A stretch of DNA of 63,216 nucleotides from Clostridiales bacterium. GTDB lineage: Bacteria > Bacillota > Clostridia > Lachnospirales > Lachnospiraceae. The translations under genes were made by a program, and so were the position numbers. A model generated the notes under the pieces. That model had not been told where the DNA came from. It did no database searches and worked only from the letters and a program-made list of their open reading frames with translations. Below, one piece after another: positions 3,277 to 8,962 of this stretch. The first letter of the stretch is position 1. Every line of letters begins with the position of its first letter. The DNA lies in assembly GCA_021204085.1 (NCBI GenBank), contig JAJPZY010000075.1, positions 1 to 63,216 of the forward strand. The letters run 5' to 3'.

Positions 3277-3822
3277 ATGAGTTCAGGAAAAAAAGAAAAA
3301 TCGGATGTATGTATATATATATACTCCTGGAGCAGTGAAAAAGAGATTCCCAGCCATGAACTGCTTCGGCGGGCGCTCGGACGTTATCTTGAAAGAAAAG
3401 TGGAAGCGATAACGGTCTGCCGGGACGATGAGTTTGGAAAGCCGTATATCGCGGAACTGCCGGATGTTCATTTCTCCATTTCCCACAGCGGAGGTTTCTG
3501 GGCTTGCGCGGTCAGTGACGTGGAGGTCGGCCTTGACCTTCAGGAGGTGAAAACCGCCCGGGAGGAGAAGCTTGCCAGACGTTTTTTTCACCCTTCTGAA
3601 ATTGCGTGGCTTGAGGGACACGGATTCAATGAGTTTTTCAGACTCTGGGCTTATAAAGAGAGTTATGTAAAATACACGGGAGCCGGCCTGCGGGACGGAC
3701 TGGATTACTTTTCGGTGGTGGATGGTGATTTACCGGTCTGTCAGCAGGAGGTTCCATTTCGTGAAGGTTTTTATATGGTAGTGACGGCGGAGAAGGGCAC
3801 ATCGGTGATGCTGCAGGATTAA
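3277..3822 (+). CDS. 4'-phosphopantetheinyl transferase (Sfp superfamily)
   Basis: Would transfer the phosphopantetheine arm of CoA to a carrier-protein serine. Diagnostic motifs are VGLDLQEV (Mg-binding Asp region), RFFHPSEIAWL, and WAYKESYVKYTG with the WxxKE signature of the superfamily, in a protein of about 180 residues. The start is uncertain: the frame is open from ATG 3217, but ATG 3277 has a loose AGGA upstream and begins just before the conserved fold. No carrier protein, polyketide or peptide synthetase gene lies in the window, so it may be the housekeeping enzyme for fatty-acid ACP or may serve a distant cluster. Confidence 0.88.
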   Translation: MSSGKKEKSDVCIYIYSWSSEKEIPSHELLRRALGRYLERKVEAITVCRDDEFGKPYIAELPDVHFSISHSGGFWACAVSDVEVGLDLQEVKTAREEKLARRFFHPSEIAWLEGHGFNEFFRLWAYKESYVKYTGAGLRDGLDYFSVVDGDLPVCQQEVPFREGFYMVVTAEKGTSVMLQD

Positions 3823-3824
3823 TG

Positions 3825-3850
3825 AAAAAGGCACTCGTTATTCGAGTGCC
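3825..3850 (-). terminator. Rho-independent terminator of the symporter operon
   Basis: Read on the minus strand, an 8-bp stem GGCACTCG/CGAGTGCC with an AATAA loop is followed by TTTTT. The phosphopantetheinyl transferase converges on it from the other side, where no T-tract is present. Confidence 0.8.
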
Positions 3851-3866
3851 ATGACGTTAAACGAAA

Positions 3867-5402
3867 CTATTCGCTTAAAACCTTGTCGTAATATTTTTCT
3901 TCGCCACTCTTCAGCGCCTCATAGAATTCCCGGGAATCTTCCGGATTCTGCCGGGTGAGGAGGCTGACGACGATCATGCAGACGAGTGATCCCGTGAAAC
4001 CGAAGGCACCGTACCAGGAACCGCCCAGATCCCAGACAAAGTAGGTCATGAGTACCAGAACGGTTCCCACGATGGCAGAGACGACTGCGGCCTGTTTCGT
4101 GGCGCGTTTCCAGTAGATGCCCAGGACCAGAATGGGGAAGAGGGGCATGACGATGGCGATGGCGAACATGATCAGCGTATAGATCAGGTCCGGCGGATTG
4201 ATGGCGAAGATGATGCTGACAATGCCGACTGCCAGGATGACCAGGCGGACGGACAGAAGCTGTTTTTTCTCATCCATGTGAATGCCAAACGTGTGGTGAA
4301 GCAAATCCTCCGAGATGATTGATCCGGTGACCAGAAGGAAAGAATCTGCGGTGGAGATGCCCACGGCGATCGCGCCGACGAAAAAGAAGATCATCAATAC
4401 TACCGCCAGATTCGGATGAATCTGGTTGATGATATTCTGAATCAGATAAGGGATAATATACTCGGTCTCGTCGGTGGAAAGACCCGGCAGCAGGGCGATG
4501 CTGACCATGCCGATGAGCATGGTGCCGGTCCAGACAAATGCCTGGAGGATCGGGGTCAGGAACATCAGCTTTCTCTGGGTGTGCAGATCGGAGCCGGAAT
4601 AGCCGGAGCGGATAAACACATGAGGCAGCATGACGGTCCAACCGATGGCACAGCTGAACGGATAGCCGAAGCGTGCACTGTAAGGTACCCATCCGTCCGG
4701 GCCGGGGTAGGAAAACCATTCGTTTGTATTTTCCCAGATGGCTGAAAATGCTGCCGGAAGGGAGCCGCCGAACGCGCAGTACAGGCAGGCGATGACAATG
4801 ATCCATAATATGGAAATATAAGCAAGTCCCTGAATTGTGTCGGTCAGGGCGATGGATTTTAAGCCGCCGATCATGACGTAGGCGATGATTACAACCCCGA
4901 CGACGATCACTACATTCTGGTAGGCGATGGCACCCCCGGTGGCAATCTCCGCCGCTTTGGAGATGGCGATCAGGACGCTGGCAATGTAGGGAAACGAGGT
5001 GCTAAGGAAAATCAACGCCAGAATCACGCGCAGCAGGGGACTTTTAAAACGATCATAGTAAAAGTCCGCAGGCGTGGTGTAATGCCGGGAACTGTTGATA
5101 ATCCAGACTTTGTTCATAACAAAGTGGACGATAATCGGGAAAAGGCAGATATAACTCAGTTCGGACGCCCAGTATCCGATACCTCCCCGGTAGTAAGCGC
5201 CGGGTCCGGCAAAAAAGACCCAGGTACTCATCAGGGAAGCAAGATAAGTCATAACCAGAAACGGCCACTTGATGCTGCCGCCCGCTGTGGCAAAGCCCCG
5301 GGCGCTTTTTTGTTTTGATCGGATGTTCTCAATCAGGGCAACGATCAGCAGAAATGCGAGATATAGTATAAAAGCAAGCCATATGGCGGTGCTGCTTAAC
5401 AT
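3867..5402 (-). CDS. Sodium:solute symporter family permease (SSS)
   Basis: A 511-residue polytopic membrane protein with at least 12 hydrophobic segments, typical of the SSS (PutP/PanF-like) family. The N-terminal part carries ARGFATAGGSIKW and TYLASLMSTWVFFAGPGAYY; the mid part has MIGGLKSIALTDTIQ, a hallmark of the family; VGAIAVGISTADSFLLV near residue 345 matches the SSS sodium-site helix. Start ATG 5402 has AAGGAGG well placed upstream. It is the last gene of a minus-strand operon, 33 bp after a small membrane protein and downstream of an MttB-family methyltransferase. This suggests uptake of the methylated substrate; that assignment is inference. Confidence 0.9.
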   Translation of the reverse strand: MLSSTAIWLAFILYLAFLLIVALIENIRSKQKSARGFATAGGSIKWPFLVMTYLASLMSTWVFFAGPGAYYRGGIGYWASELSYICLFPIIVHFVMNKVWIINSSRHYTTPADFYYDRFKSPLLRVILALIFLSTSFPYIASVLIAISKAAEIATGGAIAYQNVVIVVGVVIIAYVMIGGLKSIALTDTIQGLAYISILWIIVIACLYCAFGGSLPAAFSAIWENTNEWFSYPGPDGWVPYSARFGYPFSCAIGWTVMLPHVFIRSGYSGSDLHTQRKLMFLTPILQAFVWTGTMLIGMVSIALLPGLSTDETEYIIPYLIQNIINQIHPNLAVVLMIFFFVGAIAVGISTADSFLLVTGSIISEDLLHHTFGIHMDEKKQLLSVRLVILAVGIVSIIFAINPPDLIYTLIMFAIAIVMPLFPILVLGIYWKRATKQAAVVSAIVGTVLVLMTYFVWDLGGSWYGAFGFTGSLVCMIVVSLLTRQNPEDSREFYEALKSGEEKYYDKVLSE

Positions 5403-5435
5403 GCGGTATCCTCCTTAGCACGGTTCATTAAGCTG

Positions 5436-5714
5436 TTACAATGTCGTTTGTCCGGGTGGTTCAGAGCCCGGCAGTGTCTTATCGGAATCGGTGTTTTCCT
5501 GTTTCTCAGAGGATTTCGGGTCACGGATGCGATAAATCCGACAGACCTTTACCAGACCGACATAGATGGCGATCCACAGCGGAACCAGCGTGATGAGAGC
5601 GTGAACCAGCGTTGCTTTTGCGTAGCCGTAGGGCGGGACAAAAGGCAGGTTGTAGCAGATATAGAAAATGATTACGGCAGCGAGCCAGATTTTTTCTGTT
5701 TTCGTAATTTTCAT
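5436..5714 (-). CDS. Small two-helix membrane protein, putative symporter partner
   Basis: A 92-residue protein with two hydrophobic helices (about residues 9-27 and 35-56), a PPYGYA loop between them and a charged Ser/Glu-rich tail. Small proteins of this shape (DUF3311 and related families) often precede SSS symporters and are thought to be accessory subunits; membership of a specific family was judged by eye only. The start has AAGGGG upstream. It lies 41 bp after the methyltransferase and 33 bp before the symporter, consistent with one transcript. Confidence 0.7.
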   Translation of the reverse strand: MKITKTEKIWLAAVIIFYICYNLPFVPPYGYAKATLVHALITLVPLWIAIYVGLVKVCRIYRIRDPKSSEKQENTDSDKTLPGSEPPGQTTL

Positions 5715-5755
5715 AAATGTGTTCCCCTTTTTATATTCAGAAATAAATGGGTTAC

Positions 5756-7189
5756 TTACGACAGTTCCTCCGCTGCACGCAGCACGATGCCATGCAGTTT
5801 CTCCTCTGTTTCAGAATCCAGCATATGCGGAGTTTCCTTTTGCATGATTGCATCGTATTTTTCCCGCGCACGATCCAGGAGCGTTCTTTCTTCATCATTT
5901 TTTTCCCGAAGAAAGCCTTTATAAAAAAGATCCGGGCGGTGGGCGTCATGGAGATGATCCAGCGTGTGATCACTCATGAGATACCCGTCCTCGTCGTCGC
6001 CTTCAAGCAACTCGTCAAAGTCCAATGTCTCGTCGTCGACGGCAAGACCTGCACGGAGGCGCCGGGCAATGCCGAAGATTTCGTTGTCAATGATCAGAGC
6101 CAGCGGGTTGATGGTCTTGGCGGTTTCCATCTGCCCTGCGCCGCCGAGGACGCTGGCGTCCGACATGGCCATCATGTGAATAAGGGATGTGCGCTCGACC
6201 ATGTTTTGCCCGTCAAGCGTCATGCTGTCCGTACCGGTGCCGTAGGAATGGCAGGGAATACCATAGCCTTCTTCGAAAGCCTGCATACAGATGAGGCGTC
6301 CGAAGGTGATTTCCGTGTTGGACTGGAGCGTGTAAGTGGTCTGCATATCCATGGAAAACAAAAGCGGCGTCGCGATGACCGGAAGTCCGGGGCATAAAAG
6401 CTCGAGCATGACAATCTGTGCCAGCACATCTGCGCAGGCGGCAAGGGCCGTCCCCTGAGCGGTCACCGGTGTGTTGGCTCCCGCGGTCGGAAGTGCACAG
6501 GGCTGAACCGGGATGCCGGCTTTTGCGCATTCATATAAAATCTCCGCGTCCATAAATTTAAATTTCAGCACCGGAACACTGCAGGAAATAAAACTGCAGA
6601 TCGGGCGTTTCCGCAACTGCTCCATTCCGCCGGCGGCAGCCGCACACATTTCAATCAGGTAGCGGGTATTGTCTGCTTCATAGGGCTGAATCCAGATATG
6701 TTTTTTTGAAATCCGAAGTGCCTGTTCCAGTGTGAAGACGTCGATCGCCTTGCCCGGAACAGTTTCGTCACAGGTCGACGGCAGCGCCACATAATCGACC
6801 TGATCCATCTCGTTGACCAGATGAAACCACTCAGCGGTATCATTCAGCGTAATGTAATGCTTTTCTCCCTCAACCGGAAGATAATTGGGCGCGCCGGTGC
6901 AGGTCCGTGTATAGAAGCTTCCCTGTGGATGCGGGAAAACCATATCGTAACGTTCATCCGGAGCATAGAGCGTAAACTTCCTCGGGACAGAGGCGAGCGC
7001 CCGGTCAATGACGTTTTTGGGAAAACGGATTCGATCACCGCTTATTTCACATCCTGCTGCAGACAGTTCCTCTTTCATCTGCGGGTGATCCATGGTAATT
7101 CCGCGTTCGGTTAAAAGCCGCTCCATTCGATTTTTAAAAAGCGTCAGCTCGTCCAGAGACATGACGCTGTATTTGATTCTTCCGTTCAT
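5756..7189 (-). CDS. MttB-superfamily (trimethylamine methyltransferase-like) corrinoid methyltransferase
   Basis: About 477 residues matching the trimethylamine/glycine-betaine methyltransferase family by its N-terminal layout (LLTERGITMDHPQM, then FPKNVIDRALASVP and FTLYAPDE) and a C-terminal HMLDSETEEKLHGIV. It is open without an internal UAG, so it belongs to the non-pyrrolysine branch. Characterised members move a methyl group from a quaternary amine (glycine betaine, proline betaine, carnitine, gamma-butyrobetaine) to a corrinoid protein. No corrinoid protein or MtqA/MtvA-like partner is in the window. The frame extends to 7321; I chose ATG 7189 because homology-like sequence begins there, but no good ribosome binding site is visible, so the start is uncertain. 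The gene is driven by a strong promoter with NiaR-like operators. Confidence 0.85.
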   Translation of the reverse strand: MNGRIKYSVMSLDELTLFKNRMERLLTERGITMDHPQMKEELSAAGCEISGDRIRFPKNVIDRALASVPRKFTLYAPDERYDMVFPHPQGSFYTRTCTGAPNYLPVEGEKHYITLNDTAEWFHLVNEMDQVDYVALPSTCDETVPGKAIDVFTLEQALRISKKHIWIQPYEADNTRYLIEMCAAAAGGMEQLRKRPICSFISCSVPVLKFKFMDAEILYECAKAGIPVQPCALPTAGANTPVTAQGTALAACADVLAQIVMLELLCPGLPVIATPLLFSMDMQTTYTLQSNTEITFGRLICMQAFEEGYGIPCHSYGTGTDSMTLDGQNMVERTSLIHMMAMSDASVLGGAGQMETAKTINPLALIIDNEIFGIARRLRAGLAVDDETLDFDELLEGDDEDGYLMSDHTLDHLHDAHRPDLFYKGFLREKNDEERTLLDRAREKYDAIMQKETPHMLDSETEEKLHGIVLRAAEELS

Positions 7190-7296
7190 AGTTTCATATT
7201 TGCGCAGATGCGCGTTTCCTTTCTTCGGTTGGTTTTGTTTTAACGACTGGTATGATTCACAATTCTCCGGTATAGACAATTCCGTGGCTTGCGCGG

Positions 7297-7312
7297 AGGT
7301 GTCAAGACACCT
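7297..7312. promoter_or_regulatory. Candidate NiaR operator
   Basis: A perfect palindrome AGGTGT-CAAG-ACACCT lies about 16-31 nt downstream of the predicted start of the methyltransferase transcript, a position where a repressor would block initiation or elongation. On the minus strand it reads ACAGGTGTCTTGACACCT including flanking bases. From memory, operators described for NiaR in Firmicutes contain GTGTC/GACAC half-sites of this kind; the match was not computed. A NiaR-type gene lies divergently 200 bp away. Confidence 0.55.
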
Positions 7313-7334
7313 GTAAAACACACATGTAAATGTA

Positions 7335-7362
7335 ATTATATATCTTTTGACAGAGATGTCAA
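7335..7362 (-). promoter_or_regulatory. Consensus sigma-A promoter of the methyltransferase operon
   Basis: On the minus strand, TTGACA (7362-7357) and TATAAT (7340-7335) are separated by 16 bp, so both hexamers are perfect. The -35 element is one arm of a second perfect palindrome, TTGACA-GAGA-TGTCAA (7347-7362), which could also bind a regulator. Transcription would start near 7328. Confidence 0.75.
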
Positions 7363-7383
7363 TTGAAAAATGAAAAATAGTGT

Positions 7384-7487
7384 GTTACCATTCCAACATA
7401 AGTAAAAAGATGAGCAGTGTTTTTGTTGCGTAGGTCGCGTAAGCGGCTGCTTTTGCGCATGTGAGATGAAGATTTGTGAATCATAGC
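7384..7487 (-). repeat. Short copy of a dispersed structured repeat
   Basis: Its reverse complement closely matches 12603-12705: it contains TCACATGCGCAAAAGCAG, a GC-rich hairpin, then CACTGCTCATCTTTTT and CTTATGT. Imperfect terminal inverted sequences (GTTACCATTCC at one end, GCTATGATTCAC read from the other) flank it. It lies in the leader between the methyltransferase promoter and the NiaR-type gene. It lacks the second hairpin of the larger copy. Confidence 0.75.
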
Positions 7488-7504
7488 ATTGAAGGAGCGG
7501 CAAA

Positions 7505-8020
7505 ATGAAATCAGAGGAGAGAAGAGCACAGATTCTGGAATACCTGAGAGATAAAAACGCGCCGGTCAGCGCTTCCGTTCTGGCGGCGGAGTTTTCTGTC
7601 AGCCGACAGATTATCGTAGGGGATGTGGCAATTTTAAGAGCCGGCGGCGCAAATATTGCGGCGACGCCCCGGGGATATTTGCTGCAGGAGCAGGAACCCG
7701 GAGGGCTGATCCGAAGAATTGCGTGCATTCATGACATGAATGGAATGGAGGAGGAGCTGAACCTGTGCGTGGACTACGGCTGCAGTGTCCTTGACGTGAT
7801 CGTTGAGCACCCGGTATATGGTCAGCTGGTCGGTCAGTTGCGGCTATCCTCCCGTTACGACGTCTCCGGTTTCATGAAAAAAGCCCGGCAGGAGGGCACG
7901 CATGCTCTTTCGGAACTGACCGACGGAATCCACCTGCATACCCTGCGCTGCCCATCGGAAGAAACCTATTCCAAATTGTGCGAAGCCTTGCGTAAAGTGG
8001 GCGTATTATATGAGCAGTGA
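7505..8020 (+). CDS. niaR: NiaR-type niacin-responsive transcriptional repressor (HTH plus 3H domain)
   Basis: A 171-residue protein with an N-terminal winged helix-turn-helix (SSEERRAQILEYL-like start, PVSASVLAAEFSVSRQIIVGDV) and a C-terminal 3H domain named for conserved histidines (seen in CIHDMNG, VIVEHPVYG, DGIHLHTLRCPS). The family (YrxA/NiaR) binds nicotinate and represses NAD biosynthesis or niacin uptake genes. GAAGGAG precedes ATG 7505. No nad or niacin-transporter gene lies nearby; the divergent neighbour is instead an MttB-family methyltransferase preceded by NiaR-like palindromes, which makes that operon its likely target. Confidence 0.87.
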   Translation: MKSEERRAQILEYLRDKNAPVSASVLAAEFSVSRQIIVGDVAILRAGGANIAATPRGYLLQEQEPGGLIRRIACIHDMNGMEEELNLCVDYGCSVLDVIVEHPVYGQLVGQLRLSSRYDVSGFMKKARQEGTHALSELTDGIHLHTLRCPSEETYSKLCEALRKVGVLYEQ

Positions 8021-8064
8021 GGGCTTTTCAATAGCTGCCAGTTATGTAGAGGCAGGATGCGGGA

Positions 8065-8130
8065 GATGGCGGAGATATCATTTTAGGCAACTTTGCAGGG
8101 GCGGTTTTAGCTGAGACACAATCCATCACG
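8065..8130 (-). repeat. Partial copy of the 2819-2952 repeat element
   Basis: 8086-8130 read in reverse complement matches 2882-2926 with only a few differences (core TGTCTCAGCTAAAA and CCCCTGCAAAGTTGCC). The similarity weakens through 8065-8085, where only a trace of the terminal arm remains. It lies between niaR and the ABC transporter promoter. No other feature was seen in 8021-8168. Confidence 0.75.
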
Positions 8131-8168
8131 CATTATTTATAAAAACTCTGTGAATTTCCCGGCAAATA

Positions 8169-8197
8169 ATGACATTTTTCGATTTTTATTCTATATT
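8169..8197 (+). promoter_or_regulatory. Promoter for the ABC/FtsX operon
   Basis: ATGACA (8169-8174), a 17-bp spacer and TATATT (8192-8197) lie upstream of the ATPase gene, within an A/T-rich stretch. Confidence 0.5.
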
Positions 8198-8260
8198 AAT
8201 AAGAGGAGGCGAATGGAATCGTTAAATCGCTGCTGAATATTCAACCGGGAGGGATTTCCC

Positions 8261-8962
8261 ATGTCATACATAGAATTTGATCATATTACAAAGAGATATG
8301 AGGTCGGCGAACACCCGATTCTGGCGGTGGACGAGGCCTCTTTTGTTGTGGAAAAAGGAGAATTTGCCATTATTCTCGGCGCGTCGGGCGCGGGAAAGAC
8401 GACAGCCTTAAATATTCTGGGAGGGATGGATGAAGCGACCTCCGGAAGGCTGGTTGTAGACGGAAATGATATTACGAAATATGACAAGAACAAGCTGGTC
8501 GGTTACCGCCGCACGGATATCGGTTTTGTTTTTCAGTTTTATAATCTGGTGCCGAATCTGACGGCGCTGGAAAATGTGGAGCTGGCTGCGCAGATCTGTA
8601 AGAATTCTCTGGATGCGGCGGAGACATTGGAAAAAGTCGGTTTGGGAGATCGAAAGGATAATTTCCCGGCGCAGCTTTCCGGCGGAGAACAGCAGCGGGT
8701 GTCCATTGCCCGCGCTTTAGCGAAGAATCCGAAGCTTTTGCTCTGTGATGAGCCGACCGGTGCGTTGGACTACAATACCGGACGGCAGATTTTGAAGCTT
8801 CTGCAGGATACCTGTCGGAAAGATGGCGTGACGCTGATTCTGATCACGCACAATTCTGCGCTTGCGCCGATGGCGGATCGGCTGATTCGTTTCCGCAGCG
8901 GAAAAGTGGTGGAGATGACCGTGAGTACAAATCCGGTCTCCGTGGATGAGATTGAGTGGTAG
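8261..8962 (+). CDS. ABC transporter ATP-binding protein (MacB/LolD/FtsE class)
   Basis: A single-domain ATPase of 233 residues. It has Walker [10 protein letters not shown] (about residue 40), signature [15 protein letters not shown], Walker [13 protein letters not shown] with the class-typical TGALD, and a switch histidine in LILITHN. Proteins of this class pair with FtsX-like permeases and work as mechanotransducers rather than classical importers. GGGAGGGAT precedes ATG 8261. It is 24 bp upstream of its permease partner and certainly cotranscribed. Substrate unknown. Confidence 0.93.

Follow-up and report, generated by a model that had tools for sequence, protein, structure and literature searches.

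A candidate NiaR-controlled, corrinoid-dependent trigonelline demethylase operon in a Lachnospiraceae bacterium

Trigonelline (N-methylnicotinate) is a compound of coffee and legumes. A 2024 paper states that no enzyme is known for its demethylation to niacin, and the results of our literature search (trigonelline with MttB, corrinoid, demethylation or gut bacteria/NAD) assigned none; trigonelline has been named as a possible aromatic methylamine substrate, as yet unknown, of methylotrophic metabolism (PMC10805028). The account of Eubacterium limosum places its MttB genes apart from mtqC/ramQ/mtqA (PMC8604678). In the reports on NiaR, type I sites are given as TGT-N4-ACA, and TGTCTTGACA lies within both the Bacillus halodurans nifS-nadB site and the pneumococcal nadC R1 site, mutation of R1 being without effect in the pneumococcal study and site R2 being functional (PMC7713382, PMC5343564). 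Here we describe a locus in which niaR faces an operon for an MttB-like methyltransferase, a small protein and a symporter. It lies in a 63,216-nucleotide window (the whole stretch of DNA that was analysed), which is contig C137 of the 2.93-Mb, 94.7% complete draft assembly of a Clostridiales bacterium (genome G000; G, C and L denote our numbers for genomes, contigs and loci).

We consider it likely that this operon serves niacin-controlled vitamin scavenging, in which N-methylnicotinate would be demethylated to nicotinate for nicotinamide adenine dinucleotide (NAD) in a corrinoid-dependent manner. With somewhat less assurance, we favour the wider proposal that the enzyme is a corrinoid-dependent trigonelline demethylase providing NiaR-controlled NAD salvage in niacin auxotrophs and an entry to nicotinate fermentation in distant relatives. 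The sequence basis comprises the genes, the promoter, the operator match and its recurrence, the failure to find nadA or nadC, the presence of pncB, and a corrinoid protein with its activator. The idea of a NiaR-repressed MttB-type demethylase and symporter acting on N-methylnicotinate came from an initial annotation of the window, and it gains support from the operator core, the recurrence of the site in nadA-less relatives and the co-occurrence with predicted nicotinate fermentation genes.

The mttB operon, its operator and NiaR

The features of the locus are as follows.

3830-3850, minus strand: terminator-like hairpin 3' of the symporter gene, an 8-bp stem followed by TTTTT; weak
3867-5402, minus strand: sodium:solute symporter gene (SSF/SSS; PF00474, E = 4e-35), proposed importer of the N-methylated substrate
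5436-5714, minus strand: gene for a protein of 92 amino acids (aa) between the mttB and symporter genes, probably a membrane protein as judged by eye
5756-7189, minus strand: mttB-like gene, 477 aa (PF06253, E = 1e-57), proposed N-methylnicotinate:corrinoid-protein methyltransferase
7297-7312, no strand assigned: predicted NiaR type I operator AGGTGTCAAGACACCT, 19.3 bits, starting about 23 bp downstream of the -10 box
7335-7362, minus strand: sigma-70 promoter of the mttB operon, TTGACA-16-TATAAT, 12/12 matches
7347-7362, no strand assigned: second palindrome TTGACATCTCTGTCAA, overlapping the -35 box, judged not to be an operator
7505-8020, plus strand: niaR, HTH_11 and 3H domains above cut-off, predicted niacin-responsive repressor

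The gene calls and domains agreed with the initial annotation in that niaR is divergent from the operon of mttB, small protein and symporter, and the consensus promoter noted there ranked first among 11 promoter-like sites in 3500-8300 (4.7 on average in shuffles). The published core TGTCTTGACA is present at 7300-7309 on the minus strand, inside the 7297-7312 palindrome, giving it type I architecture. Scoring of this palindrome as a NiaR site, as had been suggested, was done with a symmetric matrix built here from 12 non-mttB sites before nad, niaR, pncB and PTS_EIIC_2 genes; it reached 19.3 bits, no other site in the 63 kb exceeding 9.2, and none of 300 dinucleotide shuffles of the mttB upstream region attained this score. 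Among the matches listed for the 2.93-Mb assembly, 7297-7312 is the only place that fits GGTGTCNNGACACC without mismatch. With two mismatches, GGTGTCNNGACACC was found at 59 places in the genome and its reversed control at 79, and the loose pattern is thus uninformative. In other genomes, TGTGTCTTGACACC precedes nadB in the sister genomes G004 and G006, and sites with the same core precede nadB in G014 and G173 and nadA in G012. A repressor bound at 7297-7312 could block transcription of the mttB operon.

The second palindrome had also been taken as a control site. It exists, with the architecture ACA-N4-TGT and not the type I TGT-N4-ACA, and loci L002-L004 keep its -35 part (TTGACA) and lose the second arm, so that it is read as a -35 box plus a chance arm, leaving one operator and not two. 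A long open reading frame (ORF) from 7321 was ruled out as the mttB gene because relatives align from the ATG at 7189, which places both palindromes upstream of the coding region. A riboswitch in the mttB leader was likewise rejected, no Rfam family reaching its gathering score anywhere in the window.

For comparison, 17 mttB loci were assembled: that of the window, 14 relatives from a genome scan, and L201 and L202. Within the family, 5 of 397 genomes searched at E <= 1e-80 have this MttB (the window's own, apparently those of L008 and L009, and the newly found L201 and L202). A NiaR-like site lies before mttB in nine of the 17 loci (window, L002, L003, L004, L008, L009, L010, L201 and L202), in each case 6-31 bp after a -10-like box. 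These sites score 12.9-22.5, a score reached by 0/300 shuffles for eight loci and 3/300 for L202, and those of the window, L010 and L201 show TGT-N4-ACA. Each of the nine site-bearing genomes has one NiaR match; in the eight loci other than the window, niaR is on another contig or at another place. A conserved niaR-mttB gene pair, one of the conditions by which the initial annotation would have its proposal judged, was thus rejected (0/14 fetched relatives), adjacency being seen in the window genome only; what is conserved is the site, with niaR elsewhere, and from the distribution of predicted sites the regulation of mttB by NiaR would be kept in trans rather than through adjacency. In the leader of L008 (G007), a long inverted repeat, TCAGGTGTCAAT...ATTGACACCTGA, stands beside TGTCTTGTCA and is perhaps a double operator.

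PTS_EIIC_2 (PF13303) genes were found in 10 of 18 genomes, and a TGTCTTGWCA site lies within 300 bp upstream in five of the 10 (G000, G008, G009, G173 and G382); TGTCTTGTCA precedes this gene in G008, G009, G173 and G382, as well as pncB in G008. These NiaR-like sites, together with the location of PTS_EIIC_2 genes inside the predicted nicotinate fermentation clusters of G010, G012 and G013 and the G011 fragment described below, make the family a candidate niacin transporter family. NiaY is the name of a niacin transporter, to which PTS_EIIC_2 may be linked. The PTS_EIIC_2 loci examined were L088, L211 (G000:C2), L206, L209, L208, L210 and L223-L229. The 117 listed hits of TGTCTTGWCA came from seven genomes: 85 were examined in 80 stretches, many of them falling inside genes; three more were those of the window mttB, G008 pncB and G009 niaR; and the other 29, many of which are contig-end repeats in G001 and G009, were left out. 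In G008 (L098:1577 and L103:1557), NiaR-like sites stand by the starts of two short ORFs, one without a Pfam family, as possible targets. In the window's own genome, TGTCTTGTCA also occurs close to where a 227-aa membrane protein, UPF0016-like by eye, is predicted to start (L092:1387, G000:C128).

The window NiaR belongs by its HTH_11 and 3H domains to the NiaR family, and no second 3H-domain gene was found in the assembly. The protein matches NiaR structures in the PDB down to E = 1e-34, and its H76, E84, H143 and H145 align with the metal/niacin ligands of TmNiaR; nicotinate-dependent DNA binding and repression are predicted. It is 35-51% identical to the NiaRs of 13 relatives compared. It is not the usual version of its genus: the closest copy is that of G012, a Peptococcaceae metagenome-assembled genome (51%), with only 43% identity to that of its own genus (G173). 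The NiaR tree included three nad-operon NiaRs and left out that of G382 for its long branch. This relationship suggests that a foreign copy came to lie next to mttB and replaced the resident niaR.

The symporter gene follows mttB in 12 of the 14 fetched relatives (61-97% identical; not seen in L009, L008 being cut off), and the small protein is recognisable between the two in 12 of 14. The latter has no Pfam or NCBIfam family and is possibly a small partner of the symporter. In L002-L004, the flanking ABC and FtsX genes are kept, and the interval from the ABC gene to mttB is only about 330-390 bp. Terminator-like sites numbered four in the region compared with 5.2 in shuffles, making the hairpin at the end of the symporter gene weak.

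Niacin need, corrinoid proteins and nicotinate fermentation

The window bacterium seems, from its gene content, unable to make niacin. Among the 15 genomes of the nadC set, nadC was above cut-off in four (G004, G006, G012 and G014) and not in the window's own; weaker matches occur elsewhere, and in the own genome that match is the pncB gene. Similarly, nadA was found in four of 14 genomes (G004, G006, G014 and G173) and not in the own. The own genome has a nicotinate phosphoribosyltransferase gene (pncB) above cut-off and a PTS_EIIC_2 gene bearing a NiaR-like site, and taken together these findings indicate that it apparently cannot make nicotinate and can use it. Furthermore, nadA was found in none of the nine site-bearing genomes vs three of four close relatives without the site (Fisher one-sided 0.014), a suggestive correlation between the site and missing nadA. 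G173, of the same genus, has nadA and no match to this mttB.

The initial annotation reasoned that the corrinoid protein and its partners would be encoded elsewhere, and both a corrinoid protein and a RACo-type activator were located on contig C146 (G000). The corrinoid protein (L203:7384-8022) has 212 aa and carries the domains B12-binding and B12-binding_2; the contig also encodes RACo with Fer2 (L203:8927-10597), DUF2284 and a PocR-AraC regulator and has two URO-D genes. The sole further B12-binding_2 match in the own genome is an 832-aa frame, MetH-like by eye. In the distant orthologous loci L011-L014 (61-62% identity), corrinoid-protein genes directly precede mttB; upstream of mttB in L013 are URO-D, CobW-like, RACo and PocR-AraC genes according to Pfam, L011 and L014 have ORFs similar to this set, and L012 is cut off. 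In the NiaR-site operon of G382, mttB, the small protein gene and the symporter gene are directly followed by a fourth gene. Its product (L231:13254-16244), a 996-aa RACo with a C-terminal URO-D segment, is possibly an activator and methyltransferase in one chain.

In G010, G012 and G013, the genomes of L011, L013 and L014, a predicted nicotinate fermentation cluster of the Eubacterium barkeri type surrounds PTS_EIIC_2, and a contig-limited fragment of it is present in G011 (L012). The G013 enamidase matches 2VUN (E = 1e-196), 3HRD gave the best hits for the large and medium subunits of nicotinate dehydrogenase, 3G7K that for methylitaconate isomerase (Mii), and 3CKY that for 2-hydroxymethylglutarate dehydrogenase (HgD); the best hit of the lyase was another member of its family, with 3FA3 fourth. 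DmdA/B-like genes were assigned from aconitase-family hits. The 6-hydroxynicotinate reductase and 2-methyleneglutarate mutase are presumed from position and from ferredoxin and B12 domains, and the steps and gene names beyond those named in the PDB follow the E. barkeri pathway. The clusters of G010 and G012 were recognised by ORF order and start sequences, their enamidases being 97% and 84% identical to that of G013. An enamidase was found in one of 391 Clostridia genomes (G667) and not in the own genome, only part of the first-look candidates having been scored in many genomes, including the own. A rare MttB clade is thus accompanied, in one clade, by a nicotinate pathway that is itself rare and, in others, by NiaR-like sites and a lack of nad genes, which suggests nicotinate as the shared element and N-methylnicotinate as the N-methyl compound that an MttB enzyme could turn into it.

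The substrate and competing explanations

A single MTTB gene was found in the assembly, and in its product the MTTB domain (PF06253) spans residues 6-475 (E = 1e-57), placing the protein in the MttB superfamily; it is proposed to pass a methyl group to a Co(I) corrinoid protein. It scores 252 bits with TIGR02369, below the cut-off of 525. Its ORF is open, with no in-frame amber codon at the pyrrolysine position, and the X of 7xcl aligns with glycine, identifying a non-pyrrolysine member. For MtgB, the contacts Y94, N199, R309, H345 and F353 with glycine betaine have been proposed from docking (PMC6855144). All five differ in the window MttB, being T98, C203, H314, G349 and A357 (the MtgB positions, offset by one in 9YCE, were counted by hand on the alignment), and the replacements are invariant in 17/17 members, which argues for one shared substrate other than glycine betaine. 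Glycine betaine is thus disfavoured, and a flat ring would be compatible with the exchange of His and Phe for Gly and Ala.

Considering these results, we propose the following scenario. When nicotinate is scarce, NiaR would leave the operator at 7297-7312, and the symporter, perhaps with its small partner, would import N-methylnicotinate. The MttB-like enzyme would move the N-methyl group to the Co(I) corrinoid protein, whose gene lies next to that of the RACo-type activator on contig C146, and the group may then enter one-carbon metabolism; the other product, nicotinate, would yield NAD through nicotinate phosphoribosyltransferase, and nicotinate-loaded NiaR would complete the circuit. The distant relatives may use this enzyme-symporter pair, encoded there together with corrinoid proteins, to supply nicotinate fermentation. 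The substrate, transport, methyl acceptor and effector response in this scenario are those that we infer from the genes.

The same mechanism and regulation could serve another N-methylpyridinium that yields niacin, chiefly 1-methylnicotinamide, by way of nicotinamide and its deamidation. 1-Methylnicotinamide is a host excretion product, and NiaR control and missing nad genes fit any niacin-yielding substrate; it agrees less well with the nicotinate fermentation genes that accompany the distant orthologues, although a deamidase would link the two, and we regard this substrate as unlikely. Less likely still is an ordinary quaternary-amine methyltransferase (for glycine betaine, proline betaine, carnitine or choline) supplying methyl groups, NiaR control then being a by-product of coupling one-carbon metabolism to NAD status: such amines are the substrates of the characterised non-pyrrolysine members in two reports (PMC8604678, PMC6855144), yet the glycine betaine residues of MtgB are all different and fixed within this family, and the co-occurrence with nicotinate fermentation and missing nadA would be coincidence. 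That niaR controls only niacin uptake genes elsewhere and landed by chance beside an mttB of unrelated role, with a palindrome of no consequence, agrees with the adjacency being confined to the window genome and with the divergence of this NiaR from that of its genus, and is nevertheless very improbable given a site downstream of the mttB promoter and NiaR-like sites after a -10-like box before mttB in eight other loci with niaR elsewhere.

Several points weigh against niacin-controlled demethylation of N-methylnicotinate. As to regulation, niaR adjoins mttB in none of the 14 fetched relatives, some of whose loci are short; eight of the 17 mttB loci have no NiaR-like site (L005, L006, L007, L015 and L011-L014; best 2.8); at six of the nine site-bearing loci the sequence is TGTCTTGTCA, which differs from the published core by one base; G005, G010, G011 and G013 gave no 3H protein; and TGTCTTGWCA is absent within 300 bp of the PTS_EIIC_2 genes in G007 and G010-G013. 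The 12 matrix sites were chosen by pattern near the mttB core, so that the matrix is not blind, and it is their position before NAD genes that is the independent part of the operator evidence. The core TGTCTTGWCA is not over-represented in the own genome (6 vs 8 control hits), and its value came only from the genes that it precedes. As to niacin need, the absences of nad genes come from draft assemblies, the 15 genomes of the nadC set omit G035, G382 and G173, and both the site and nadA are missing from G005, a 2.2-Mb assembly in which NiaR was not found either. The MttB tree shows just two changes of site label, and the nadA correlation thus rests on very few independent events. The nicotinate fermentation genes and mttB are on different contigs, and the four relatives with these genes (G010-G013) form one clade. 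The pocket comparison uses docking-based residues and not a bound structure, and the support as a whole is genomic, the enzyme, transport and binding being predicted.

The locus nevertheless offers a concrete, testable gene for both gaps, the missing enzyme of trigonelline demethylation and the aromatic methylamine substrate of methylotrophy. If the proposal is true, a corrinoid methyltransferase would be added to the NiaR regulon and a new substrate class to the MttB superfamily, and a bacterial route from trigonelline to vitamin B3 is suggested.

Comparison with known systems

The E. barkeri nicotinate fermentation cluster is, by its predicted counterparts, shared by G010, G012 and G013, carriers of distant MttB orthologues. 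Unlike E. barkeri, the own genome has no enamidase match, and nicotinate would go to NAD and not to fermentation. With the NiaR regulon described in Bacillus and Clostridium, the locus shares a 3H-domain repressor and a TGT-N4-ACA operator before NAD-supply genes, whereas the targets named in those reports are nad, pnc and niacin-transporter-type genes, without a corrinoid methyltransferase operon among them (PMC7713382, PMC5343564). MtgB of Desulfitobacterium (glycine betaine; 2QNE, 9YCE) is homologous to the window MttB over its full length, residues 6-475. In contrast to the substrate proposed here, those of the E. limosum enzymes are aliphatic/saturated quaternary amines for methylotrophic growth; the divergent regulator of MtyB and MtcB is RocR-like, the neighbour of MtyB is a major facilitator superfamily transporter, and the account notes no vitamin repressor (PMC8604678). 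In its layout, the locus nonetheless resembles the E. limosum MtpB/MtcB/MtyB system with MtqC-RamQ-MtqA, having a non-pyrrolysine MttB enzyme, the corrinoid protein and activator genes apart from it, and a transporter gene beside the MttB gene (PMC8604678).

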